Positions 10,119-57,984 of a stretch of DNA of 64,000 nucleotides are shown one piece after another. Source of the stretch: Clostridia bacterium. GTDB lineage: Bacteria > Bacillota > Peptococcia > DRI-13 > UBA5745. The notes beneath the pieces are model-generated. The model was not told where the DNA came from. It saw nothing but the letters and a program-made list of their open reading frames with translations, and did not search any database. Location: assembly GCA_018434325.1 (NCBI GenBank), contig JAHDPO010000013.1:62001-126000 (forward strand), given 5' to 3'. The position numbers and the translations under genes were made by a program. The first letter of the stretch is position 1; each line of letters starts with the position of its first letter.

Positions 10119-11054
10119 TTAGTCGCACACGACGGTGCCGGTACGTCCGGCAATGCCTTCTTTGGCTTTTTCCAGCAAAGTGATAAGGGCCCGGCGGCCG
10201 GCCTTGGATTCGGCAAACTCAACTGCTGCTTGTACCTTCGGCAGCATGGAGCCGGGAGCAAAATGGTTTTCGCCAATGAGCTTCTTGGCGTCTGCCGTAC
10301 CCAACTCCGACAGCCATTGCTGATCAGGCTTGCCAAAATTGATGGCCACCTTTTCGACGGCGGTGAGGATGATCAGGTAATCGGCGTCCAGCTCCTGGGC
10401 CAGGCGGCAGCTGGCAAAGTCTTTGTCGATGACGGCGGCAATGCCTTCCAGGCGGTTGCCCCGGCGAACTACCGGTATGCCGCCGCCGCCGCAGGCAATG
10501 ACGATGTGACCGGCGCTGACCATGTCGCTGATGCTGGCAATTTCGACGATTTCCCTGGGCTTCGGGGAGGCTACCACCCGCCGCCAGCCCCGGCCGGCAT
10601 CTTCCATAATGGCCTGGCCCTCAGCCTCAACCGCCAGGGCCTCTTCATGGGTCATAAAGCGGCCAATGGGTTTTGTGGGATGGCTGAAAGCGGGGTCCTG
10701 AGGATCTACGGCCACCTGAGTGATTATGGTGCAGACCTCTTTGCGGATGCCCCGGTCTAAAAGCTCAGTCCGCAAGGCGTTTTGCAGGTCGTAGCCGATA
10801 TAGCCCTGGCTCATGGCGCCGCAAACGGTGAGGGGAGTGGGGGGATACTTGACTGGGTCTTTGGCGGTTAACTCTGCCATAGCCAGGTTGATTGTACCGA
10901 CTTGGGGACCGTTGCCATGGGCCACGACTACCTGATGACCTTCTTCGACAAGGTCGGCAATAGCTTTGGCTGTGTTCTGGGCAGCGGCATACTGCTCCGG
11001 CAGGTTGTTGCCCAGGGCGTTGCCTCCTAAAGCGATAACGATACGTTTTGGCAT
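10119..11054 (-). CDS. arcC: Carbamate kinase (ArcC/YqeA)
   Basis: A 311-residue amino-acid-kinase fold enzyme that makes ATP from carbamoyl phosphate and ADP. Visible motifs are IALGGNALG at the N-terminus, VAHGNGPQVG near residue 45, AVIDKDF near 210, and the C-terminal ITLLEKA region. In the E. coli yqe/yge purine-catabolic cluster the equivalent is YqeA. Here it follows ygeW on the same strand, past a strong hairpin. It would harvest carbamoyl phosphate released by the YgeW transcarbamoylase, the energy-yielding step of ureide fermentation. Confidence 0.93.
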   Translation of the reverse strand: MPKRIVIALGGNALGNNLPEQYAAAQNTAKAIADLVEEGHQVVVAHGNGPQVGTINLAMAELTAKDPVKYPPTPLTVCGAMSQGYIGYDLQNALRTELLDRGIRKEVCTIITQVAVDPQDPAFSHPTKPIGRFMTHEEALAVEAEGQAIMEDAGRGWRRVVASPKPREIVEIASISDMVSAGHIVIACGGGGIPVVRRGNRLEGIAAVIDKDFASCRLAQELDADYLIILTAVEKVAINFGKPDQQWLSELGTADAKKLIGENHFAPGSMLPKVQAAVEFAESKAGRRALITLLEKAKEGIAGRTGTVVCD

Positions 11055-11102
11055 GGAAACAGTCCTTTCTTTTTAAAAATAAATTCAAAGCAAATTAGAA
11101 AT

Positions 11103-11196
11103 AAAACCCGGCGGCGCAGGGATAAATACCACCGTATACCAATCTGCACTGGAGTTTTTAATTGCAGATGAGTATGACCTTGCACCGCCGGGTTTT
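11103..11196 (-). terminator. Long hairpin terminator between ygeW and arcC
   Basis: On the minus strand a 12-base perfect stem (AAAACCCGGCGG with CCGCCGGGTTTT) extends inward past small mismatches and contains a second stem, ATCTGCA/TGCAGAT. It ends in TTTTATTT, fitting an intrinsic terminator or attenuator. The inner ATAC-nn-ATCTGC boundary resembles the outer stem of the cloverleaf elements at 41526 and 57985. Confidence 0.65.
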
Positions 11197-11206
11197 AATG
11201 AGAATA

Positions 11207-12400
11207 CTATAAAGTCTTACGCAGCTTGCCTCTTTGTTCCAGGGCCTGCAGCACTTCCTGGGGATTCTTGATTTTGCTGAGGAAGATCATGGCCGCAATG
11301 ATGTAGGGCTTGTAGCTGGCTTCTTTGTAGAGGGGCACCCGGTAGCGGTCAAAAACGGAAGCGGCCACTTCGCCTTCTTTGCAGCTGACGCCGGTGATGT
11401 CTGCCGGCAGGCAGTGGAGATAAAGGGCTTTGCCGTCCTTCGTCTTGGCCATCATTTCTTCGGTGCATTCCCAATCCTTATGCTGGGCGTTTTGGGCCAG
11501 CAGCTCTTTTTCCAAAGCCTTGATGCCTTCATTGTCGCCTTCGCCGTAAAGCTTCGTCCGTTTTTCCATGGCGGAAAAAGGCGCCCAGCTCTTGGGATAA
11601 ACGATATCTGCATCCTGGAAGGCCTCGGCCATGCTGTTGGTCTTTTTGAAGCTGCCGCCGTTTTCTTTGACGTTTTTCAGGGCCACTTCTTCAACTTCGC
11701 TCATGATTTCGTAGCCTTCGGGATGGGCTAAGACCACATCCATGCCCATACGGGTCATCAGGCCCACGACGCCCTGAGGTACGGAAAGGGGTTTGCCGTA
11801 GGAGGGAGAATAAGCCCAGCTCATGGCGATTTTTTTGCCTTTCAGGTTTTCGACGCCGCCAAAATGATGGATGATATGAGCCATGTCGGCCATGCATTGG
11901 GTGGGATGGTCGATGTCGCACTGCAGGTTGACCAGGGTGGGCCGCTGCTCCAGCACACCGTCTTTATGGCCTTCGGTGACGGCGTCCATAAATTCATGCA
12001 TATAGGCATTGCCTTTACCGATGTACATATCGTCACGGATACCGATGACGTCGGCCATGAAAGAAACCATATTGGCCGTCTCACGGACGGTTTCGCCATG
12101 GGAAATCTGGGATTTGCCCTCGTCCAGATCCTGAACCTCGAGGCCCAGCAGGTTGCAGGCAGAGGCGAAGCTGAAACGGGTGCGGGTGGAGTTATCCCGG
12201 AAAAGGGAGATACCCAGGCCGCTTTTGAAGATTTTGCTGGAAATATTGTTTTCCCGGAGGTGACGCAAAGCATCGGCTACGGTAAAGACGGCGTCCAGCT
12301 CATCCCGGGTTTTTTCCCAGGTGAGGAAAAAGTCGTTTTCATACATCTCGTCAAAGGTCAACCCGTTCAACTTATCAATAAAGGGCTTAATATTACTCAT
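11207..12400 (-). CDS. ygeW: Knotted carbamoyltransferase YgeW
   Basis: A 397-residue transcarbamoylase of the YgeW family. FRDNSTRTRFSF (about residues 68-79) is the carbamoyl-phosphate loop; DHPTQCMADM and HCLPADITG are the other active-site signatures of the ornithine/aspartate transcarbamoylase fold. The family is tied by genome context to selenium-dependent purine catabolism, but its true substrate was not settled when I last knew. Neighbours are ygeY upstream and carbamate kinase downstream. The expected direction in fermentation is phosphorolysis of a carbamoylated amine to carbamoyl phosphate. Start ATG follows GGAGAAAGAGT. Confidence 0.92.
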   Translation of the reverse strand: MSNIKPFIDKLNGLTFDEMYENDFFLTWEKTRDELDAVFTVADALRHLRENNISSKIFKSGLGISLFRDNSTRTRFSFASACNLLGLEVQDLDEGKSQISHGETVRETANMVSFMADVIGIRDDMYIGKGNAYMHEFMDAVTEGHKDGVLEQRPTLVNLQCDIDHPTQCMADMAHIIHHFGGVENLKGKKIAMSWAYSPSYGKPLSVPQGVVGLMTRMGMDVVLAHPEGYEIMSEVEEVALKNVKENGGSFKKTNSMAEAFQDADIVYPKSWAPFSAMEKRTKLYGEGDNEGIKALEKELLAQNAQHKDWECTEEMMAKTKDGKALYLHCLPADITGVSCKEGEVAASVFDRYRVPLYKEASYKPYIIAAMIFLSKIKNPQEVLQALEQRGKLRKTL

Positions 12401-35334: not shown

Positions 35335-35351
35335 TTAGTTAGTCTATCTAA
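35335..35351 (-). promoter_or_regulatory. FabT-type operator palindrome
   Basis: TTAG-T-TAG-T-CTA-T-CTAA reads as a 17-base palindrome around a central base. It begins at the last base of the fab -10 element, so it covers the transcription start, an ideal repressor site for the FabT encoded next to it. The divergent operon starts 21 bases away and may share the control. Confidence 0.65.
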
Positions 35352-35378
35352 TTATATAGCGGTGGAGGAAAATGTCAA
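35351..35378 (-). promoter_or_regulatory. Sigma-A promoter of the fab operon
   Basis: On the minus strand, TTGACA (35378-35373), a 16-base spacer and TATAAT (35356-35351): both hexamers are perfect consensus. The -35 hexamer overlaps the first codons of the divergent gene at 35372. Confidence 0.8.
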
Positions 35379-35758
35379 TAGAAAAATTATTTGGCAGCTG
35401 CTCAAAATTGCAGATATTCCCCCGGCATGCTGGTTATTCTGTAGTGGTCCAAGGACTTTATGACGATGTGAAAAGATGCTGCAATAAGATGGGGCTGAAA
35501 GTCCATACCACCAATCATTCTCTGGGCATTTGGGGCAAAAAAGAAAAGCTGCCCTCTCAGGAATTGCTGGAGATCACCACCATGTGCGGCCATGGCATGG
35601 TGCCTGCCAGTCTGGTTAAGGATGCCCTCAATGATATTAAAACAGGCAAATCAACGGTGAAGGAAGCGGCCTTGAAGCTGACCAGGCCTTGTGTCTGCGG
35701 CACATTTAATCCGGACCGGGCCGAAAGGCTGCTGGCCAAAATAGCGGAAAAGAAGTAA
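35372..35758 (+). CDS. Uncharacterised Cys-motif protein (short paralog of the 36502 gene)
   Basis: A 128-residue protein I do not recognise. From about residue 22 onward it aligns along its length with the C-terminal half of the protein at 36502: HTTNHSLGIWGKKEKLP, TTMCGHGMV and the Cys pair PCVCGTFN are shared. The invariant MCGHGM and PCxC motifs could bind metal or an Fe-S cluster; that is inference. The start ATG 35372 has GGTGGAGG only 3 bases away, so a later start is possible. First gene of a four-gene unit with a ferredoxin-like protein and an amidohydrolase. Confidence 0.7.
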   Translation: MSIEKLFGSCSKLQIFPRHAGYSVVVQGLYDDVKRCCNKMGLKVHTTNHSLGIWGKKEKLPSQELLEITTMCGHGMVPASLVKDALNDIKTGKSTVKEAALKLTRPCVCGTFNPDRAERLLAKIAEKK

Positions 35759-35770
35759 AGGGGTGAAGTC

Positions 35771-36502
35771 ATGAGAATCGACCCGGACAAGTGTATCGCT
35801 TGCGGCAACTGCCTGCCCTATTGTCCGATGGCTGCCATTGCCATGATTGGCGATATAGTGGTCATCAATGAAGATGAGTGCGTGGAATGTGACTGCTGTT
35901 TCGACTTTGCCGGCTGCCCCACGGCGGCCATCGAGAAGGTTGACCTGGCCTGGCCCCGGATCTTGAGGAACCAATTCAGCAATCCGGTGGTTCCTACCGT
36001 AACCAGCATGACGGGCCGGGGATCGGAGGAGATGAAAACCAATGACGTCACCAACCAGTTCAGGGCAGGCTTTTTTGGATTAGGGGTGGAGCTGGGCCGG
36101 CCGGGCATTGGGGTCAGGTTTGACGATGTGGAGAAAGTGACCATGGCCCTGGCTCCTCATATCAATAAATTTGCGGCAGTCAATCCTGTCACTGAGCTTC
36201 TGGAGGATCGCACCACCGGCAAGATCAGGGCTGAAGTCCTTAGCGAAAAAGTTATGTCGGTTTTGGTGGAAATCATTGCTCCTCTGGAAAAGCTGCCGGC
36301 CCTGCTTCAGGAGCTGGCAGCCTTGAAGACCAAGGTTAATACGGTTTTTTGCGCGTCCTTAATCTCGAGACTGGATGAGAACGGCAATTCGCCGGTGGTG
36401 GAGATCGCCAGGCAATGGGGCTTTACGCCGGAAATCAGGACAAAGACCAATATCGGCATGGGCAAAATACCTCCGGGGTACAGAGGGGAGGCACATAAAT
36501 AA
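35771..36502 (+). CDS. Ferredoxin-like protein with 2 x [4Fe-4S] and an unknown C-terminal domain
   Basis: A 243-residue protein. The first ~55 residues have two Fe-S motifs: CIACGNCLPYCP (residues 9-20) and a looser CVECDCCFDFAGCP (about 37-50). The remaining ~190 residues (GFFGLGVELGRPGIGVRFDD, SLISRLDENGN, NIGMGKIPPGYRGE) match no family I know. It presumably carries electrons to or from a redox partner, most simply the two Cys-motif proteins on either side. Start ATG follows AAAGGGGTGA. Its stop overlaps the next start as TAATG. Confidence 0.75.
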   Translation: MRIDPDKCIACGNCLPYCPMAAIAMIGDIVVINEDECVECDCCFDFAGCPTAAIEKVDLAWPRILRNQFSNPVVPTVTSMTGRGSEEMKTNDVTNQFRAGFFGLGVELGRPGIGVRFDDVEKVTMALAPHINKFAAVNPVTELLEDRTTGKIRAEVLSEKVMSVLVEIIAPLEKLPALLQELAALKTKVNTVFCASLISRLDENGNSPVVEIARQWGFTPEIRTKTNIGMGKIPPGYRGEAHK

Positions 36503-37140
36503 TGACGCACAGCTTATACAGGACAGGATCTTACGATGAGGTAAAAGATGATTTCGTGGTATTGATCATGCCGGGCAAGGGCATCAATGTGGAAGGCTCC
36601 GCAGCAAAAATGAAACAGTTTCTGGACATCGCCAACCGCCATGCTCCCGCGGATCTGGGCGGCTGGGCCATCGGCCATATGTACAACTCCACGCTGGAGG
36701 ACATGAAGGATAAAGTGATCGACAGGGCGGCATCCTGCTCGGTGGTCTACGACAGCAAAGAATCTCTTGTGGAATTCTTGAAAGAGATGAAGGAAGCAGA
36801 CCTGGGCCTGTCCCTGGTGATCAGCGGCGTCGATGAAATCGTCAAAAATGACGTCTGCAAAGAGCTGGATATCAAACCCCATACCACCAACTATTCTTTG
36901 GGTATTATGGGCAAAACCGAAAAGCTGCCCCAAGATGAAAGGGTGCTGGCTGTTGCCACCATGTGCGGCCACGGTATGGTCTCCTATAATCTGATCAATC
37001 AAGCGGTAGAAGAAGTCAGGGGCGGAGCCGATCCGGAGCAGGTGGCAGCAAAGCTGGCCCAGCCCTGCTCCTGCGCCATTTTCAATGTGCGCCGTGCCGT
37101 GGGCCTGCTCAAAGAGATGAGCCGGGATACCCTGGAGTAG
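36502..37140 (+). CDS. Uncharacterised two-part protein with MCGHGM and PCxC motifs
   Basis: A 212-residue protein of unknown function. The N-terminal ~100 residues (VLIMPGKGINVEG, GGWAIGHMYNSTLEDM) are unique to this copy. The C-terminal ~110 residues repeat the fold of the protein at 35372: HTTNYSLGIMGKTEKLP, ATMCGHGMVS, QPCSCAIFNVRRA. Spacing of the Cys residues is conserved between the two copies, which suggests a shared cofactor site and perhaps a heterodimer. Translation is coupled to the ferredoxin-like gene by a TAATG overlap. No signal peptide or membrane segment is visible. Confidence 0.7.
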   Translation: MTHSLYRTGSYDEVKDDFVVLIMPGKGINVEGSAAKMKQFLDIANRHAPADLGGWAIGHMYNSTLEDMKDKVIDRAASCSVVYDSKESLVEFLKEMKEADLGLSLVISGVDEIVKNDVCKELDIKPHTTNYSLGIMGKTEKLPQDERVLAVATMCGHGMVSYNLINQAVEEVRGGADPEQVAAKLAQPCSCAIFNVRRAVGLLKEMSRDTLE

Positions 37141-37156
37141 AAAGGGAGGGATAGTG

Positions 37157-38344
37157 ATGAATTTAGACCGGCTGCCCTTTTTCGATCATCATAGCCACCT
37201 GCTGGACCCCCAAAGGATTTCCCTTAGCAGAAAGAGCCTGTCCATGAATTTTTCACACGGCTATCAGGATAGGGAACCCTTTATCCAAGGCCTGGACGCC
37301 ACTTATGCCCATGGCTATGCCTCGGATTTTCAGAAGAAAAATATAGAGAATCTGGGCGTGGTCAAGACGGTAGTAAATTATATGGCGCAATATCTTGGCT
37401 GTCAGCCCGCCATAGAAGCCGTGGTGGCGGCCAGAAACGCCCGAACCCAGGATGAAGCCGCCTTGCGGCAGTACACCATCGATCTCTATCGTGACCAGAA
37501 TATTCTGGCCACAGTGGTGGATTGGCCCAACAGTGAGCCCTATGACAGGCCGGGAACCTTTCCCTGTCCGGTTTACCGGCTTTATAATTATGAGGACGTC
37601 TATTTTGAACTCCTAAAAACAGCCGGTTCCTTCAAGGAGTTGATGGCCGAGCTGAGGTTGGATATCAAAAAAGCCATCAGGGATAAGGGCTTTGCCGCTT
37701 TGAAATGTCATCTTTGCGAGCATTATACGATGGCGGTGCGGCCCGTCAGCGACGAAATGGCGGAAAAGGTTTTTGCCGCCGCCAAAAACGGGGAATATGG
37801 GGCTTGCGAAGAGGTCTATTTTGCAATGTTGGGCCATCTGCTGCTCTTGTGCCAGGAGCTGGCTGTGCCGCTGCATATCCATACCGGCTCCACGGGTTTT
37901 AACCGGAAATCTGCCGCTTTTGTACCGGAGATGGATCCTTTTCTCTTTGTACCCTTTATTGTCTCTGATCCTCAATACGTCAAAACAAAAATCGTTTTTC
38001 TCCATCAGGGATATCCCTACACCCGCCATGCCGCTTTAATGGCCTATTCTTTCCCTAATATGTATGTGGACACCAGCTGGACTCTGCCCTGGGCGTCGGC
38101 CAGCTTCTGCAGCTGCATTGAAGATGTGCTGGGGGTTGCGCCTCATACGAAGATCTTTTTCGGCTCAGGCCAGCATGGCATTCCCGAGATTGCCTGGACG
38201 GCAGCTAAGGTAGCCAAATCCTGCCTGGCCCAGGTGCTGGATAAGATGGTGGGATTGAATCTTATGGCAGAAAGCCAGGCCGAGGAGACGGCCGCCTTGC
38301 TGCTCTACAAAAATGCAGTGGCTTTGTATAGCAAGGAAGGCTAG
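37157..38344 (+). CDS. Amidohydrolase-superfamily protein (amidohydrolase_2/FluG-like)
   Basis: A 395-residue protein of the metal-dependent amidohydrolase fold. FDHHSHLLD near residue 10 supplies the HxH pair; KCHLCEH (near 180), HIHTGSTGFN (near 240), FLHQGYP (near 280) and FGSGQHGIPE (near 335) follow the barrel strands. In FluG/amidohydrolase_2 proteins the last motif usually has Asp (xTDGHxxPE); here the Asp position is Gly. It may hydrolyse a cyclic amide or act as a lyase. ATG 37157 follows GGAGGG by 6 bases. It faces an NCS1 permease gene. Confidence 0.75.
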   Translation: MNLDRLPFFDHHSHLLDPQRISLSRKSLSMNFSHGYQDREPFIQGLDATYAHGYASDFQKKNIENLGVVKTVVNYMAQYLGCQPAIEAVVAARNARTQDEAALRQYTIDLYRDQNILATVVDWPNSEPYDRPGTFPCPVYRLYNYEDVYFELLKTAGSFKELMAELRLDIKKAIRDKGFAALKCHLCEHYTMAVRPVSDEMAEKVFAAAKNGEYGACEEVYFAMLGHLLLLCQELAVPLHIHTGSTGFNRKSAAFVPEMDPFLFVPFIVSDPQYVKTKIVFLHQGYPYTRHAALMAYSFPNMYVDTSWTLPWASASFCSCIEDVLGVAPHTKIFFGSGQHGIPEIAWTAAKVAKSCLAQVLDKMVGLNLMAESQAEETAALLLYKNAVALYSKEG

Positions 38345-38393
38345 GGCGGATACCGCAAGACCGGCGCCGGCCAACTAAAAACGGGCATACAAA

Positions 38394-38423
38394 GGGGGCT
38401 TGTACCAATATGGCACAGCCCCC
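38394..38423. terminator. Hairpin between convergent amidohydrolase and NCS1 permease genes
   Basis: GGGGGCT and AGCCCCC, seven pairs, enclose a 16-base loop. On the minus strand it is followed by TTTGTATG and later TTTTT. It probably serves both convergent genes; the T tract is weak. Confidence 0.5.
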
Positions 38424-38469
38424 AATGAATTGCCGGGTTATTTCATGCTTAAACAGACGGCATCAAGCT

Positions 38470-39768
38470 CTATTTCTTCAATACCTTGCCGTCAAAAGCC
38501 TTACTTAATATAGTGTAGACAATTAGTGTAAAAATGAAGGCGATCACCGGAGAGACGAAGAAGTTCAGCTCCAGGCAGACCTTACCGCAAATACCGCCCA
38601 AGATCCAGGCGACGATGGCGATAGGGTTGATGTCGATATCAATTTTGCTGTTTTTCACAAAATAGCGCTCGGCCACAATCAGGGCCGGCACAGGAGCCAG
38701 CAGCACGGACAGGAAGGAAATGATGGGCAATAGATATTTGAGAGCGCCGACAAAGGCAAAAATAGCGGCACAAGCAGAAATGGAGATGGCGATCTGGGCG
38801 TGGGTGATTTTTCCTTTCAGCCTCGTCTCATTAAAAACATTCTGCAAAGCCAGGGAGGCGCCGTAAATGTTGTTATCCTGAGTAGTCCACAGACAGAAAA
38901 CGGAGCAGGCAAAGACGAGATAGCCTAAGCCCAGAGCTGCGGTAGCTGCGGAGAAGTTGCCGTTTTTCGTGGCCATAGCGACCAGAACGCCGATAAACTG
39001 CAGACAGAACAGGCCGATGAAAAAGGCCGAGGTGCCGCTGATCAATACGGTTTTTTTACTTCTGGCATAACGGCAGACATCCGGCGTGATGATGCAGCCA
39101 AAAACCCAGCTGCCGACCACGGAGGCGGAGGCGGCGGTAAAGGTCATGGTTTCATTAGGTACATAAGAAAAGATAGAAGTATAACCGCCGGTTTTAATGC
39201 CTACGCCGATGAAGCAGGCCAGGGAAAGCACGATGGCTGCCGGCACGCCCAGGAAGGAGATAAACTCCAGGCCTTTATAGCCACGGATTGCCGACTGGGC
39301 CCAAATGAAAATTACGATAACGCCGGTAATGGAAACAGGAATAGGCCACCAGGCGAAGTTGGTCTGGATCATGCCGGCAAAGGTATTGCCGTTGATACCG
39401 ATCCAGTTGATGGCCGATAAGGCCAGCAATACAGAGAAAATGCTGGAGCCTTTCTTGCCGAAGGCTGTGCGGGAGAGAAAGGAGGTGGAAAGTCCGGTTT
39501 CATATGAAATAATTCCTGTGCAAACAGCGATAAAAATCAGAAAAGCGTCTGCCGCCAGAATAGCGGTCATGGCTTGAGCAAAAGACATTTTGATACCGAT
39601 GGCAGCCCCCGTCACGAAATTGGACAAGGCAATGGGATAGCCCGCCAGCACCATAAAAAGGCTGAGACCCCCTTTTTTCTTATCTTCCGGTACCGCTTCA
39701 AAAGCGAACTCGTAAGCGCCTTCTTCTTTCACTGCGGGTGCAGCTGCTTGTGCTTCTAATTCTGACAT
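38470..39768 (-). CDS. NCS1-family nucleobase permease (CodB-like)
   Basis: A 432-residue permease with about 12 membrane segments. The N-terminal cytoplasmic stretch is acidic. GYPIALSNFVTGAAIG, NWIGINGNTFAGMI and GSWVFGCIITPDVCRYARSK are typical of cytosine/purine/allantoin NCS1 symporters. The substrate cannot be read directly. Its position opposite the unknown amidohydrolase operon and next to the nicotinate cluster suggests an N-heterocycle or cyclic ureide. ATG 39768 follows AAGGAGGATTATCC. The 280 bases upstream are AT-rich; I saw no recognisable purine riboswitch. Confidence 0.85.
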   Translation of the reverse strand: MSELEAQAAAPAVKEEGAYEFAFEAVPEDKKKGGLSLFMVLAGYPIALSNFVTGAAIGIKMSFAQAMTAILAADAFLIFIAVCTGIISYETGLSTSFLSRTAFGKKGSSIFSVLLALSAINWIGINGNTFAGMIQTNFAWWPIPVSITGVIVIFIWAQSAIRGYKGLEFISFLGVPAAIVLSLACFIGVGIKTGGYTSIFSYVPNETMTFTAASASVVGSWVFGCIITPDVCRYARSKKTVLISGTSAFFIGLFCLQFIGVLVAMATKNGNFSAATAALGLGYLVFACSVFCLWTTQDNNIYGASLALQNVFNETRLKGKITHAQIAISISACAAIFAFVGALKYLLPIISFLSVLLAPVPALIVAERYFVKNSKIDIDINPIAIVAWILGGICGKVCLELNFFVSPVIAFIFTLIVYTILSKAFDGKVLKK

Positions 39769-40049: not shown

Positions 40050-41453
40050 TCACTGAGCCAGTACGATACCTAGCTTTTCCGCTATCTCCTTGGCTGCGGC
40101 CAGGGAGGGGGAGGCATCCCGCAGCACCAGGCGGCCGCCGCCCCGGTTCAGGGTATCCACCATGCAGGTCATTTCGTCGGTTTCAATGGTGATTTTTTGG
40201 ATGCCGTATTCTTTATTTTCTTTGATATCCACGGCGATGCCCATCTCTTTGACTTTGTCTACAGCCTTGCCGTACATTTCGTAATCGCCGGTATTGGCGC
40301 CAAAGACGGCTCCCATGAGGACGCCGGGGATATTGATGGCCCGGCGGGCAAAGAGTTCGGGATAAAGCTCCACGGTAACCTTTTTGATGTTGCCCTTGGC
40401 CAGCTCATGGGCAATCCGGGCGGCATTGGTGGGAGAACCCACTGCCTGGCTGGAGCCGCCCACTACGGCGTCGCCGTAAGTCTGCAGAATGGGCTTGGTG
40501 CCATCGGCCAGCTTTTTGGCGATTTCTTTAGCCTTCTGCAAAGTTTCTTCAATCTGCTTGTTTTCGGCAGCCTTGACTTCTTCGCTGATCAGGGATTCCA
40601 CATTGGCTTTGCGTTTAAAGAAGGGCTCCATGAATTCGACTACCGTAGGCACCACGGCCTTGGCGGAGACGATGTGTACCTCGGCGGCCATGGCGATCAT
40701 TACGTCAATGGGCACATTGACGGTCATGTCCACCAGCATGCAGAGGCGGGCGGAATACATACCGATAAGAATGGCGCCGCCCACGTGAGTGGTGCAAAGG
40801 GCCGGCACCAGCACCCTGGGCGTGCAGGGGTTGGCGATAGTGGGGGAAATAGCCAATACCATGGCTTTTTCCATCTGCTCGGGAGTGCCGCCTTCCAGGG
40901 CTACCGTAGCGGCGGAGATGCAGGCGGCGCCGGCGCCGAAGCCTTCCATATTGCAGCCGGTGCTGACCTTGCCTACACGGAAGATGCTGCCGATTTTCAG
41001 AATCAGGGCGGCTACCTCGGCGATAGTGACTTCATCGATGCCTTCTGTCTGCATAGCCTTCACAAAGCCGGCATAGGGGCAGGAGTCGCCGGTGCCGGCG
41101 CAGGGCCGCAGACCGATGCAGTGGTTGCCTACCTGGGCCGCCAGGGTGTAGAGCAGGGCATTATCCAGGAAGGTGTCTTTGAAACACTTCGTACCCTTAA
41201 CCTGGTTCAGTTGGGAAGCCACAGTGCCCAGCAGAATGCTTTCGCCGTCTTTCAGGCCGATGTCCAGAGCTTTCAGGTTGTGGGCATATTCGTCCATTAC
41301 CTTCGTGAGAATTTCTTCCCGGGAAAGGCCTGTACGCAGTTCGCTTTCGATGAGAACCACATCCACCACCCGGGCGCTATATTCGGTGGCGAGAGCCAGC
41401 ATTTCCCCAATAGTTAAAGGCATTTTTGCCTTGATTGCTTCTCTTAATGCCAT
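40050..41453 (-). CDS. hmd: Serine dehydratase-like [4Fe-4S] enzyme, predicted 2-(hydroxymethyl)glutarate dehydratase
   Basis: A 467-residue homolog of the alpha domain of iron-sulfur L-serine dehydratases. TGCNMEGFGAGAACISA (near 180) and NPCTPRVLVPALC (near 210), plus an earlier PCAGTGDSCP (near 120), supply the likely cluster cysteines. In E. barkeri a [4Fe-4S] serine-dehydratase-like enzyme is predicted to turn 2-(hydroxymethyl)glutarate into 2-methyleneglutarate; this gene fills that slot in an otherwise complete pathway. ATG 41453 has AAAGGA upstream; the TTG at 41471 is rejected. Separated from dml by two cloverleaf elements. Confidence 0.8.
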   Translation of the reverse strand: MALREAIKAKMPLTIGEMLALATEYSARVVDVVLIESELRTGLSREEILTKVMDEYAHNLKALDIGLKDGESILLGTVASQLNQVKGTKCFKDTFLDNALLYTLAAQVGNHCIGLRPCAGTGDSCPYAGFVKAMQTEGIDEVTIAEVAALILKIGSIFRVGKVSTGCNMEGFGAGAACISAATVALEGGTPEQMEKAMVLAISPTIANPCTPRVLVPALCTTHVGGAILIGMYSARLCMLVDMTVNVPIDVMIAMAAEVHIVSAKAVVPTVVEFMEPFFKRKANVESLISEEVKAAENKQIEETLQKAKEIAKKLADGTKPILQTYGDAVVGGSSQAVGSPTNAARIAHELAKGNIKKVTVELYPELFARRAINIPGVLMGAVFGANTGDYEMYGKAVDKVKEMGIAVDIKENKEYGIQKITIETDEMTCMVDTLNRGGGRLVLRDASPSLAAAKEIAEKLGIVLAQ

Positions 41454-41525
41454 GTGATCATTCCTTTCCAAAGATTAGAAAAAGTAGGATGTAAAAGGCT
41501 AAAGCGCCTTCCTGCAAGCAGCCTC

Positions 41526-48931: not shown

Positions 48932-50017
48932 TTAGCAATCGATCTTGTAATCACCCAGTTTAATCATACCCTGTTTGCGCATGAATTCAGAGGTCAGCCA
49001 AGATACTGTGGCAGGAATGACAATGGCGATGAGCAGGAGACCCAGCCAGTCAAAGGCGGTGGCGCCAACTGCTACCTCACCGGCGGTGACTGCCGCCTCA
49101 GAAGGCGTGAACCAGCCGGTGATGACGCCGATGGGGCCTACCATACCGGAGGTGCCCATACCTGAGGAGATAGGAGGACCGTTCTGTTTCATTTTGAAGA
49201 TTACGGTAGCAACGGGGCCGTTGACAATGGAGGCAACTACTGCCGGCATCCAGAGAATGGGCTTGCTCATCAGATTGGGTACTTGCAGCATGGAAGTGCC
49301 AAGGCCCTGAGCCATCAGGCCGCCAATCTTGTTTTCTCTGTAGGAGGCAACGGCAAAACCTACCATGTGCGCGCAGCAGCCGGCTACGGCGGCGCCGCCG
49401 GCCAGGCCTACCAAGCCGAAGGAAGCGGCTACGGCAGCGGAGCTAATGGGCAAGGTGAGCACAATGCCCATGATAGCGGAAACCAGGATACCCATCAGGA
49501 ACGGCTGCATCTCGGTGGCCCACATAATGGCGTAACCGATGGAAGCGGCAGCTTTGCCGATGGGAGGCGCCAGGATCACGGCTGCGACGACACCCACACA
49601 AATCGTAACAAAAGGTGTGGCAATCAAGTCGATAGGCGTGGTTTTGGAAACCAGTTTACCGGCAAAGACGGCGATCAATGCAATAAAGAATACGGCTAAA
49701 GGACCGCCGGCGCCGCCTAGGGAGTTGGCCGCCTGACCTACGGCTACCAGAGAATAAAGCACAAAGGGCGGAGCTTTTAAAGCGTAGCCGATGGATACGG
49801 CCATGGCCGCACCGGTACCGGCAGTGGCAAAGCCGCCGATTTTGTTAAGAAAAGGAATACCCAGCTGGGTGCCCAGGGTATTGATGATAGTACCGATAAG
49901 TAAAGATGCAAAAAGACCGTGAGCCATAGCGCCAAGGGCGCTGATACCGATTCTGTTCCAGGTAATTTCAATACCTTGCTTTTTCATAAAAGCGGAAAAG
50001 GATTTAGGTTCTGACAT
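48932..50017 (-). CDS. PTS EIIC-like membrane transporter, nicotinate uptake candidate
   Basis: A 361-residue protein with about 9-10 hydrophobic segments, GGFATAGTGAAMAVSIGYAL, GGAAVAGCCAHMVGF and NGPPISSGMGTSGMVGPIG. It resembles the 'PTS_EIIC_2' group of stand-alone membrane proteins, which carry no EIIA or EIIB phosphorylation domain; none is encoded nearby. Inside a cluster with every catabolic enzyme and no other transporter, nicotinate or a related acid is the natural substrate guess. That is inference; the family's transport mechanism is unproven. Ribosome site GAGGGGGATC. Confidence 0.65.
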   Translation of the reverse strand: MSEPKSFSAFMKKQGIEITWNRIGISALGAMAHGLFASLLIGTIINTLGTQLGIPFLNKIGGFATAGTGAAMAVSIGYALKAPPFVLYSLVAVGQAANSLGGAGGPLAVFFIALIAVFAGKLVSKTTPIDLIATPFVTICVGVVAAVILAPPIGKAAASIGYAIMWATEMQPFLMGILVSAIMGIVLTLPISSAAVAASFGLVGLAGGAAVAGCCAHMVGFAVASYRENKIGGLMAQGLGTSMLQVPNLMSKPILWMPAVVASIVNGPVATVIFKMKQNGPPISSGMGTSGMVGPIGVITGWFTPSEAAVTAGEVAVGATAFDWLGLLLIAIVIPATVSWLTSEFMRKQGMIKLGDYKIDC

Positions 50018-54894: not shown

Positions 54895-55476
54895 TTAGCG
54901 CAAGCCGTCTTCGCCTTTGATTTCACTGATTTGCAGGCCGCCGATTCTGGCATGAGGACGGCCGCCGTCGGTGAAAGCCAGAGCTACGACGATTTCGTCG
55001 CATTTGGGAGCGTCGGCGATTCTGACTTCCATGGCGTCATAATGAGTGCGGACAAAAGCGGCGTCTTTGTAGTGCAGGGGCACGTCCAGAGCCGTACCGG
55101 CAGCGCCGGCTTTTTTAGCGGAGGGAATGATGGCTTTGCCGCCGCCGATGGCATCCCGCATGGGTTTGCCCAGCTTGGGATGGAGAATAGCAGCGCAGTG
55201 CTCTAATTCGCCGTCCAGGCCGGCGATGGCGCCTTTGCCGTAGCTGTGGACATTGCCTTCGCCCAGGACCTTTACGGCTTCTTTGGAGAGATAATCTCCC
55301 AGCCATTCGCCGATTTCGCTGAGTTCGGACAAGTCTTCCTGGTATTTGCCGGCATAGGGATTCTTAATAACGGCAGCTACGGAAACCCGGCGGATGGGTT
55401 TTTCCAGATCGGAGAAGCCTTCGTAACGGATCTCTTCCACAGAGGTGACAACTTTTCTGATTTTGGGCTCTAACAT
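54895..55476 (-). CDS. AA_synth (amino acid synthesis) family protein
   Basis: A 193-residue soluble protein that matches the 'amino acid synthesis' family (PF06684 as I know it): IRRVSVAAVIKNPYAG, GKPMRDAIGGGKAIIPS, GTALDVPLHYKDAAFVR and FTDGGRPHARIGGL. The family has no established reaction, but it recurs with amidohydrolases in N-heterocycle degradation clusters, and this gene lies between hgd and the UPF0280/hnr/ena genes. It may assist enamidase or act on 2-formylglutarate; that is a guess. ATG 55476 follows AAAGGAGAG; the TTG at 55482 is disregarded. Confidence 0.75.
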   Translation of the reverse strand: MLEPKIRKVVTSVEEIRYEGFSDLEKPIRRVSVAAVIKNPYAGKYQEDLSELSEIGEWLGDYLSKEAVKVLGEGNVHSYGKGAIAGLDGELEHCAAILHPKLGKPMRDAIGGGKAIIPSAKKAGAAGTALDVPLHYKDAAFVRTHYDAMEVRIADAPKCDEIVVALAFTDGGRPHARIGGLQISEIKGEDGLR

Positions 55477-55499
55477 AAGCAATCTCTCCTTTTATCTGT

Positions 55500-56399
55500 T
55501 TATTGATTTTGAATTTCAGTTTTAGCTCCGGGCATATTGATTTGAATCATGTGATCCTGGACCCTGGCGGTCATGGCCAGCAAATTACCTTTATGCTTTT
55601 GGCGGAAAGCTTCCTGCTCTACTTGGGCCAAGGCCTGCCGCACTTCCCGGCGGGTCAGCCGGTCCACTGCCGCCACTACCTCCAAATCCCGGATATCGCT
55701 TTGGGGATCGAAAACACCGGCCTTGGCGGTCAATACCCGGGGCGAAGGAACGTAGGAGGTATTGGCCAGATGAGTAGCCAAAGCGTCGGCTAAGATGCAA
55801 CGGGAAGAAAAAACACTGACCCCCTGGGCAATGCCCCGGGTGAAGCTCCTGCCTCCTAAACCGCTGGTAGCCACGCCGCCGATACCGTCCTCAGCTTTGA
55901 TGGGAACCACCACATCCACTTGACCGGCAGCCAGGCTTGACATGATGCCCAGATTGAGCTTTTGTCCGGGAGCCAGCCTTATAGCCACATCGCCGCCGTT
56001 ATTGACGGAGACCCGCTGAGCGCCCCGGGCAAAGAGCCAATCGGCCACTAAATCTGCCATGGCGCCGGCAACGGTAGCCATAGGAGTCAGGGTAGGCTCC
56101 TCAACCGCTAAGACGGCCTCCAGCATTTGGGCCGGCAGTCCCGTCAGAATCCGCAAGGGGATTTGGCCGGGATACAGGCGCAGCAAATCCAGAGAAGAGG
56201 TAAGCTCTTTTAAACCTTCCTCGATTACGGCAAAGGCCTGGCAGCAAAGCTCCGTCAAGGGCAGGCCGTCTTTATCAGCCATGATCACCATGGAGACGGG
56301 CCCATAGTCTACGTAAACCTTGCCATCCTCCAGCACCCGGAAAGGCCCGGGGGCATTGGCGGTGTGAAGCTGATCATGATGTGTGATTTGATGCTGCAT
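55500..56399 (-). CDS. UPF0280 family protein (ApbE-like fold)
   Basis: A 299-residue UPF0280 protein. VAGAMADLVADWLFARGAQ and VNNGGDVAIRLAPG (near 115-145) echo the N-x-GGD substrate loop of ApbE flavin transferases, whose fold the family shares. It starts 33 bases after hnr. Because 6-hydroxynicotinate reductase of E. barkeri carries covalently bound flavin, a role in attaching that flavin is attractive; no experiment I know shows it. Cytoplasmic; no lipoprotein signal. Confidence 0.75.
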   Translation of the reverse strand: MQHQITHHDQLHTANAPGPFRVLEDGKVYVDYGPVSMVIMADKDGLPLTELCCQAFAVIEEGLKELTSSLDLLRLYPGQIPLRILTGLPAQMLEAVLAVEEPTLTPMATVAGAMADLVADWLFARGAQRVSVNNGGDVAIRLAPGQKLNLGIMSSLAAGQVDVVVPIKAEDGIGGVATSGLGGRSFTRGIAQGVSVFSSRCILADALATHLANTSYVPSPRVLTAKAGVFDPQSDIRDLEVVAAVDRLTRREVRQALAQVEQEAFRQKHKGNLLAMTARVQDHMIQINMPGAKTEIQNQ

Positions 56400-56431: not shown

Positions 56432-57928
56432 CTAGGCATCGCCTTTTAGGGTTTTAACATCCTTGACTTGATCCATATGGCCGCCAATAGACTCGTAGTC
56501 GGACAGTTTCATGGTATATTCCACGGGAGCCACTGTGGCGGGGGTGGGTACCCAGCTGAAGCCGTTGGCCACTACCTGCTCGGTATCGATGATGAAGTTG
56601 ATGCCGCCGCCGGGCAGAATGAAGGTGGGAGCGCCGCCGATGGTCAGTACGGCTTTGCCGGCGTGGACGGCTTGGGAAAGGGAGAGAGGCTTTTTGCAGA
56701 CGCCGCCCCGGGCGCTGCCGCCGGTACCGCCGGTGTACATGACGGAGCAACGGGATTCCTCACAAGCTTCGTTGATGGCTTTCGGCACTTTCAGGGCCTT
56801 TTCCGTCATGGGGATGGCCTTAACTTCGCCGTCGGCCTGCAGCTCAAAGAGCTCATAGATCTCGCCGGTGGTGTTGACCACCAGAATAGTCATGCCGGGT
56901 TTGGCAACGGACATATCGACGCTCTTAATGGCGTCCCGGCAGCTCATCAGCGTAGTGCCGCCAATGCCGTCGCCGTGTTCGCCGAAATAGCGGCCCCGGG
57001 AGCTCTTGGTGGCGTTGGGCACCACGCCGCTCCAGGAAAGACCGATGGCTGCTCCGGCCAAATGCTCGGTGCATAAGCCGATGACGTGGTGGTCAATGAC
57101 CAGGCATTCGTCGACGCATTCTTTCATCAGGTAGGCAAAAAGACCTACGGTAGCGCTGCCGCAGCCCAGGCGCATTTTCTTTTCCTGGACGCCGTTGATG
57201 ATGGGAGCTTTGCCGGCCTGCATCCGGACTTTATATTTCTTATCTACGGAAACTTCCACCTCTTGGCCGTTGGCCAGTTCCACGATGGTACGGGCCGTCA
57301 TGAAGCCGCCGTCGCCGGTAAGCCGGTTGGCGCCGCCGATGGCGATCATCTTGGAGCCGTATTCTTCCGTATTGACCATGCCGACTACTTTACCGTCACG
57401 GTAGACCTTAGCGCCTTCTTCACCAATGTAGCTGTTGGTATCCAGCTTCACAATCAGGCCGCTGTAGCTCAAAGGAGCTTCCGTCACTACGGTAACCACA
57501 TCCACGCCTTCTCTGCTTTCCTTGACGATATGGGGAGCAGGCAGGGAGCAGGGGTAGTTGGCGCCGCCGCCGACGGCGGTGATAATGGGCCGGCGGATAT
57601 TCTCCTCGGGGAAGATCAAATCCTTAGGCTCCAGAACATGCTCCAGAGTTCTTTCCAGCTTGCCGTCCCGGTTGATATAGCGCTTGCAGGCGCCGGTAGC
57701 GCCTGCGGGCACCCGGCACTGAATGGGGCAATAGCTGCAAATCACAGCGGTAGCCGGCAATTTGTCGGTTTTCTCCAAAGCTTTAAAAGGGCAAACCCGC
57801 ACACAGATGCCGCATTGTACGCAGGTATCTTTAATGTGCAGTTTTTTTCTTTCTAAATACAAAGCGTCTACGGGACAGTTTTTTACGCAAATACCGCAGC
57901 TTTTACAATTCTCGTTAACGATGATCAC
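56432..57928 (-). CDS. hnr: 6-hydroxynicotinate reductase
   Basis: A protein of about 498 residues. Two [4Fe-4S] motifs open it, CKSCGICVKNCPVDAL (near 8) and CVQCGICVRVCPFKAL (near 37), followed by a second Cys group CPIQC...GACK (near 70-85) that could hold the [2Fe-2S] centre. The rest is a glycine-rich flavin-linked domain. It reduces 6-hydroxynicotinate to 1,4,5,6-tetrahydro-6-oxonicotinate; the E. barkeri enzyme has covalent flavin and three Fe-S clusters. GTG 57928 has AAGAAAGG at a proper distance; the ATG at 57937 abuts that site. Confidence 0.9.
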   Translation of the reverse strand: MIIVNENCKSCGICVKNCPVDALYLERKKLHIKDTCVQCGICVRVCPFKALEKTDKLPATAVICSYCPIQCRVPAGATGACKRYINRDGKLERTLEHVLEPKDLIFPEENIRRPIITAVGGGANYPCSLPAPHIVKESREGVDVVTVVTEAPLSYSGLIVKLDTNSYIGEEGAKVYRDGKVVGMVNTEEYGSKMIAIGGANRLTGDGGFMTARTIVELANGQEVEVSVDKKYKVRMQAGKAPIINGVQEKKMRLGCGSATVGLFAYLMKECVDECLVIDHHVIGLCTEHLAGAAIGLSWSGVVPNATKSSRGRYFGEHGDGIGGTTLMSCRDAIKSVDMSVAKPGMTILVVNTTGEIYELFELQADGEVKAIPMTEKALKVPKAINEACEESRCSVMYTGGTGGSARGGVCKKPLSLSQAVHAGKAVLTIGGAPTFILPGGGINFIIDTEQVVANGFSWVPTPATVAPVEYTMKLSDYESIGGHMDQVKDVKTLKGDA

Positions 57929-57984
57929 GAAATCCATCCTTTCTTAAACCCTTTTAACCCTTAACCCTTTAAATCCCGAATATT

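Follow-up and report, generated by a model that had tools for sequence, protein, structure and literature searches.

A predicted two-protein iron-sulfur module, and not a conserved four-gene pathway, between a fab operon and a nicotinate cluster

A 64,000-nucleotide stretch of a Clostridia bacterium genome (assembly GCA_018434325.1, contig JAHDPO010000013.1, positions 62,001 to 126,000; here called the window) carries four closely spaced genes, A to D, between a fab operon and a nicotinate fermentation cluster. Do they act together as one pathway? A sequence-only reading had proposed that they do, as a redox-plus-hydrolysis system for a cyclic nitrogen compound that follows the logic of the Hnr and Ena proteins encoded nearby. 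Its account of the layout was borne out by a check of the open reading frames (ORFs) in the window: A to D are real plus-strand ORFs of the lengths given, with intergenic gaps of 12 (A/B), -1 (B/C) and 16 bases (C/D, measured from D's ATG). The proposed system was not upheld. A to D are not one conserved pathway; B and C are the core and the rest is local. On sequence evidence, B and C are a two-protein iron-sulfur module (BC) that is always paired and recurs across many bacteria. In the window, the BC pair, a cut-off C end (A) and a local gene (D) make up a segment of ~3 kb that is part of neither the fab operon nor the nicotinate cluster.

In seven genomes searched with both proteins, B and C were adjacent, one to one, in 31 of 31 cases, 30 of them in the order B-C and one as C-B. 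C was also used to search whole genomes: 7 of 100 contained relatives, one of them with as many as ten copies, and in a wider draw from the phylum the figure was 25 of 398. Named records with C relatives belong to Bacillota, Chloroflexota, Synergistota, Acidobacteriota, Thermodesulfobacteriota and Rokubacteria; neither B nor C was found in the plasmid collection. Across all loci, the C matches recorded without a paired B were at contig ends, were short remnants, or lay in a tandem C-C on a short contig (L022) and at L064. At L064 a B is really adjacent to C and has an internal insertion; the protein (L064:12747-13547) contains an inserted near-duplicate of its own LMEDLTTGKL segment. The window's pair has the features that define the module, namely adjacent B and C, eight Cys and a GRGxEExK motif in B, and CGH and CxC in C.

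The two proteins have also diverged together. Distance matrices for B and C were correlated over 86 pairs (r 0.89) and inside each of two genomes holding 9 and 10 pairs (r 0.98), and none of 999 permutations reached these correlations. Across the 86 pairs, the invariant residues of B are the eight Cys, G82 R83 G84, E87, K89, N91, G109 R110, P139, E167, K225 and G231, and those of C are R7, D17, G53, G102, S104, C155 G156 H157, C189, C191 and N195, with H127 kept in 85 of 86. The eight Cys of B form two complete Fer4 motifs, which agrees with the earlier description of B as a 2x[4Fe-4S] protein and makes a redox role plausible; the remainder of B has no family assignment.

AlphaFold2 modelled C with a mean predicted local distance difference test score of 92.9, its helical Cys/His domain coming after an alpha/beta plait, and B with a score of 86.2, as a ferredoxin domain and a plait. 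The least confident stretches of the B model hold the invariant loop (residues 82-93) and tail (225-231), a pattern suggesting that these parts may become ordered upon C binding. Scans of the window proteins and 37 C members gave no Pfam or NCBIfam family for A or C. PDB searches by sequence returned no relative of C and, for B, its ferredoxin part only, and Foldseek searches by fold gave no match at E ≤ 1e-3 for either protein. The best of the weaker Foldseek matches were to ferredoxins, in the case of B's first domain, and to an assortment of PII, SbtB and ACT plaits. A profile comparison of B with C gave 2.9% probability and no usable relation, and no paper on the module was found in a literature search of partial coverage. 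The Cys-motif and Fe-S proteins had been called uncharacterised, and that description stood; profile and structure searches found no characterised family for them and recognised only B's ferredoxin part. We rate the BC module as new because no curated family for C, solved structure or paper describing the module was found.

The likenesses to known proteins are partial. Clostridial-type 2[4Fe-4S] ferredoxins (1fca, 1fdn, 9g03) have the Cys pattern and fold of the first ~55 residues of B, with a fold match to 1fca/1fdn at a root-mean-square deviation of 1.7 Å, but they lack B's ~180 extra residues, the invariant motifs these hold, and an obligate partner C. The 6-hydroxynicotinate reductase Hnr (window 56432-57937) likewise has an N-terminal 2[4Fe-4S] domain, but its significant alignment to B covers only B residues 6-58 (36% identity over 53 residues) and the rest is unrelated. 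PII, SbtB, CutA and ACT proteins have the plait topology common to B and C; the fold matches are weak, there is no sequence relation, and none of these proteins has a ferredoxin or Cys/His domain. Membership of B or C in the PII, ACT or CutA families was rejected, with no Pfam or NCBIfam match and a best fold E value above 1e-3. The catalytic subunit of ferredoxin:thioredoxin reductase has a seven-Cys CPC/CPC/CHC pattern. Its likeness to C is in idea only, that of a helical Cys-rich domain with CxC motifs served by a ferredoxin; C was rejected as such a subunit, having only C155, C189 and C191 as invariant Cys, no PDB sequence relative and no fold match.

Copies of BC go with certain types of catabolic operon, among them operons for the uptake of organic acids; the types met are TctABC, TRAP, AOR and CODH-like. 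TctA (PF01970) lay within 6 kb of 17 of the 31 pairs against 0.98 expected, and AOR (PF02730) within 6 kb of 9 against 1.3 expected. Within 7 kb of the 86 pairs, TctA was present at 40, GntR at 22, AOR at 12, CooS-like and lactate-racemase-like proteins at 5 each, with others besides; a transporter stood beside 64, from families including TctABC, TRAP and 2HCT. The redox neighbours are AOR, CooS-like proteins with FNOR, and KGOR. Checked identities comprise the CooS/prismane-like, pyridine-nucleotide oxidoreductase, dihydropyrimidinase-type, AllG, FdrA, DUF6282, molybdenum hydroxylase, PucR and DctM neighbours; the remaining ones were named by eye. EcfA counts were left unused, since ordinary ABC ATPases have probably raised them, and the amidohydrolase counts include a pyrC-type gene of a pyr operon (L049). 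Where contexts vary in the B+C tree, 21 changes of operon type sufficed and none of 300 shuffles needed fewer than 25, whereas genome labels were unclustered (44 changes against a shuffle minimum of 43). The CooS-like proteins by BC pairs at L107, L117, L125, L127 and L128 are ~420-520 amino acids long, compared with 621 positions in the CODH model, and these loci also carry a CooF-like ferredoxin and an NAD(P)H oxidoreductase.

What, then, are the other two genes of the segment? The described paralogy of A and C holds in that the two are related (45% identity, E 4e-23), but A matches only C residues 101-207, the last half, and is probably a remnant. A recent origin of A by duplication of the neighbouring C is not supported: the closest relative of A is a Dehalococcoidia C (57%), and the window's C forms a long branch. 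Alignment with the sister species G004 spans marR through A's ATG and first codons. The ATG overlaps the complement of the -35 box of the fab promoter and a GGAGG sits in the promoter spacer. Since A's start and GGAGG are thus the antisense of that promoter, A is most likely a 5'-truncated C gene: the junction cut it off, and the frame of the remaining 3' end stayed open by accident. Elsewhere, B-C-B-C occurs in tandem (L065), so the segment may originally have been B-C-B-C-D. It is doubtful that A is instead a functional stand-alone Cys/His protein. Its open frame keeps all the Cys/His residues, the GGAGG ahead of its ATG resembles a ribosome site, and a short ORF similar to A exists in genome G108 (at L104), but the same ATG and GGAGG are found in a species lacking gene A, and the only short C matches not due to contig ends among 95 are A, L104 and L048, the latter two looking truncated as well. 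At L104 (9262-9627) the C-type Cys/His domain, without the N-terminal half, follows an aldo/keto reductase that carries a ferredoxin tail.

Gene D had been called an amidohydrolase, and its family is indeed Amidohydro_2 (E 4e-12), but the catalytic Asp is replaced by Gly. Its nearest relative found, at L074 (E 4.5e-33, 29-31% identity), adjoins a glutamine-synthetase-like gene, the arrangement of FluG-type sets. D keeps the HxH, Lys, His and His of FluG-type relatives; where L074 has GSDG and 2qpx has SD, D has GSGQ, so that the Asp which lies towards the C-terminal end of the barrel and serves in catalysis and metal binding is missing. The likeness of D to FluG-type amidohydrolases and 2qpx is at family level, and its neighbour is BC, whereas that of L074 is the glutamine-synthetase-like gene. 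D may start at GTG 37154 or ATG 37157, giving 396 or 395 amino acids. No further D-like gene was found at E ≤ 1e-40 in 298 genomes, and none stood within 7 kb of the 85 other BC pairs. From its sequence, D appears to be a local FluG-type add-on with an altered catalytic site; the missing Asp, seen in one genome only, is possibly a sequencing or assembly error at that codon.

The genes to the right of A-D make up a nicotinate fermentation cluster of Eubacterium barkeri type and encode Dmd, a GlmL-like protein, a PrpF-type isomerase, a B12 mutase, DmdA/DmdB, molybdenum hydroxylase subunits and a HIBADH-type dehydrogenase. Its 501-amino-acid Fer4 protein we take to be Hnr and its amidohydrolase Ena, and the pathway steps of the cluster genes are likewise our assignment. 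The cluster of G004 (86-98% protein identity) has NCS1 as its last gene, marR-fabH follows 0.43 kb on, and A-D are absent; in G007 and G008 the cluster likewise ends with NCS1, and C was not found in either. Because NCS1 closes the cluster in all three, the permease is a nicotinate-cluster gene outside the A-D set: it does face the set, as had been noted, but it adjoins no other BC pair. C was not found in eight family relatives, certain of whose genomes are incomplete, which makes a gain in the window species the simplest history; loss of A-D in G004 is the alternative. Codon usage and GC gave no decisive sign of foreign origin. Hnr was present in 14 of 398 genomes and C in 25, with both in 1, the window's own, against 0.9 expected. 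With this chance-level co-occurrence and a sister locus lacking A-D, a link between BC and nicotinate fermentation was rejected.

G004 holds 318 matches (at most one mismatch) of CAAAATTGCAGGTTTGT, compared with 2 in the window's genome, often in 41-bp-spaced arrays opposite inverted arrays (L142, about 10928-11344), and this is a recent expansion of a repeat element in G004. The 17-mer at which the left-junction alignment fades does not account for the insertion, being highly repeated in G004 (318 matches) and nearly absent in the window's genome (2). Two genes of the nicotinate cluster are candidate transporters, NCS1 (38470-39768, minus strand), a candidate nicotinate carrier, and a PTS_EIIC_2-like membrane protein (48932-50017, minus strand). 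Between Dmd and NCS1, a 473-amino-acid protein (40050-41471, minus strand) weakly resembles the L-serine dehydratase alpha subunit and is kept in G004, G007 and G008. An AA_synth (PF06684) gene and a UPF0280-like gene (PRK04334) adjoin Hnr (54895-56399, minus strand), and a second Hnr-like gene, with 40% identity, lies elsewhere in the window's genome (G000:C22:112677-114167).

Table 1. Features of the A-D segment and its borders, in window coordinates
Feature	Position	Strand	Description
Gene B, 243 aa	35771..36502	+	2[4Fe-4S] ferredoxin domain and orphan alpha/beta domain; first subunit of the predicted BC module
Ferredoxin domain of B, residues 1-58	35771..35944	+	Cys 8, 11, 14, 18, 37, 40, 43, 49 invariant 86/86
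B loop, residues 82-93 (GRGSEEMKTNDV)	36014..36049	+	G82 R83 G84 E87 K89 N91 invariant 86/86; low model confidence
Alpha/beta plait domain of B, residues 98-215	36062..36415	+	PII/ACT/CutA-like fold, weak
Gene C, 212 aa	36502..37140	+	Alpha/beta plait and helical Cys/His domain; second subunit of the predicted BC module
Cys/His domain of C, residues 125-207	36874..37122	+	H127 85/86; C155-G-H157, C189-x-C191, N195 86/86
ORF A, 128 aa	35372..35758	+	C-type Cys/His domain without the family's N-terminal half; most likely 5'-truncated remnant
marR-fab promoter, perfect TTGACA-16-TATAAT, opposing operon	35351..35378	-	Encloses A's ATG (35372)
Left junction	35380..35413	.	End of close alignment with sister species G004 falls here
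Gene D, FluG-type Amidohydro_2	37154..38344	+	G339 (codon 38168-38170) replaces catalytic Asp; by BC pair in this genome only
Right junction, intergenic	38345..38469	.	No alignment to G004; alignment restarts at NCS1 stop codon (38470)

The reading of BC that we favour, tentatively, is a partner-specific redox enzyme or half-enzyme. B and C would form a complex in which the invariant loop and tail of B become ordered on C; the Cys/His set of C (H127, C155, H157, C189, C191) would hold a metal or a third cluster as the working site, and B would connect that site to the cell's low-potential electron carriers. Each copy would be specialised for a carboxylate-type substrate of the adjoining transporter operon. 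The pairing, the correlated divergence, the Fe-S sites of B, the invariant Cys/His residues of C and the operon association argue for this reading, and the confident models, the sister species without A-D and a tree that follows operon type and not genome are counted as further support. Several points weigh against it: 22 of the 86 pairs have no listed transporter nearby, in certain cases neither a redox nor a transport neighbour is recognisable, the operon-type signal in the tree could arise from co-inheritance of whole operons alone, and the weak PII/ACT likeness of the plaits fits a sensor equally well. More speculative still is the possibility that BC is a new two-subunit iron-sulfur enzyme class, with a Cys/His-bound metal or cluster active site in C, whose duplicated and specialised copies contribute a step, so far unrecognised, to many operons for anaerobic carboxylate degradation.

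As a sensor, the pair would be a redox- or effector-sensing regulator whose plaits bind a metabolite or nucleotide, whose Fe-S sites report redox state, and which gates the adjoining transporter or regulator. The plait matches to PII, SbtB, CutA and ACT domains and the frequency of transporter and GntR neighbours would suit such a role, but all of the fold matches lie above E 1e-3, BC lacks a DNA-binding domain, GntR or PucR regulators occur as separate proteins, and the neighbouring transporters come from unrelated families; we consider a regulator unlikely. Comparably improbable is a dedicated electron-transfer adaptor for AOR, CooS-like and similar oxidoreductases, with no chemistry of its own. 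The 2[4Fe-4S] domain of B and the AOR and CooS-like genes near some pairs point that way, but the majority of pairs have neither neighbour, an AOR match is absent from the whole window genome, and the loop, tail and Cys/His residues seem more strongly conserved than an electron carrier would require. Least probable by far is the original proposal that A-D and NCS1 reduce and then hydrolyse a cyclic nitrogen compound. The spacing of A-D is operon-like, and a few BC pairs elsewhere lie near a dihydropyrimidinase-type amidohydrolase or a molybdenum hydroxylase (L121, L113, L120). At L121 the pair is accompanied by a dihydropyrimidinase-type amidohydrolase, AllG and FdrA, and at L120 by a DUF6282 protein and molybdenum hydroxylase, a faint echo of the idea. 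The expected co-conservation, however, extends to B with C and no further, since neither a D-type hydrolase nor NCS1 was found within 7 kb of any of the 85 other pairs; D lacks its catalytic Asp, NCS1 belongs to the nicotinate cluster, A is a probable remnant, and the co-occurrence of BC with Hnr across genomes is at the chance level.

Here an adjacent pathway and an accidental start codon gave the appearance of a system that does not exist. The presence of BC in six phyla by TctABC, TRAP, AOR and CODH-like operons points to a step common to many anaerobic degradation pathways, and solving one BC copy would allow dozens of operons to be annotated.

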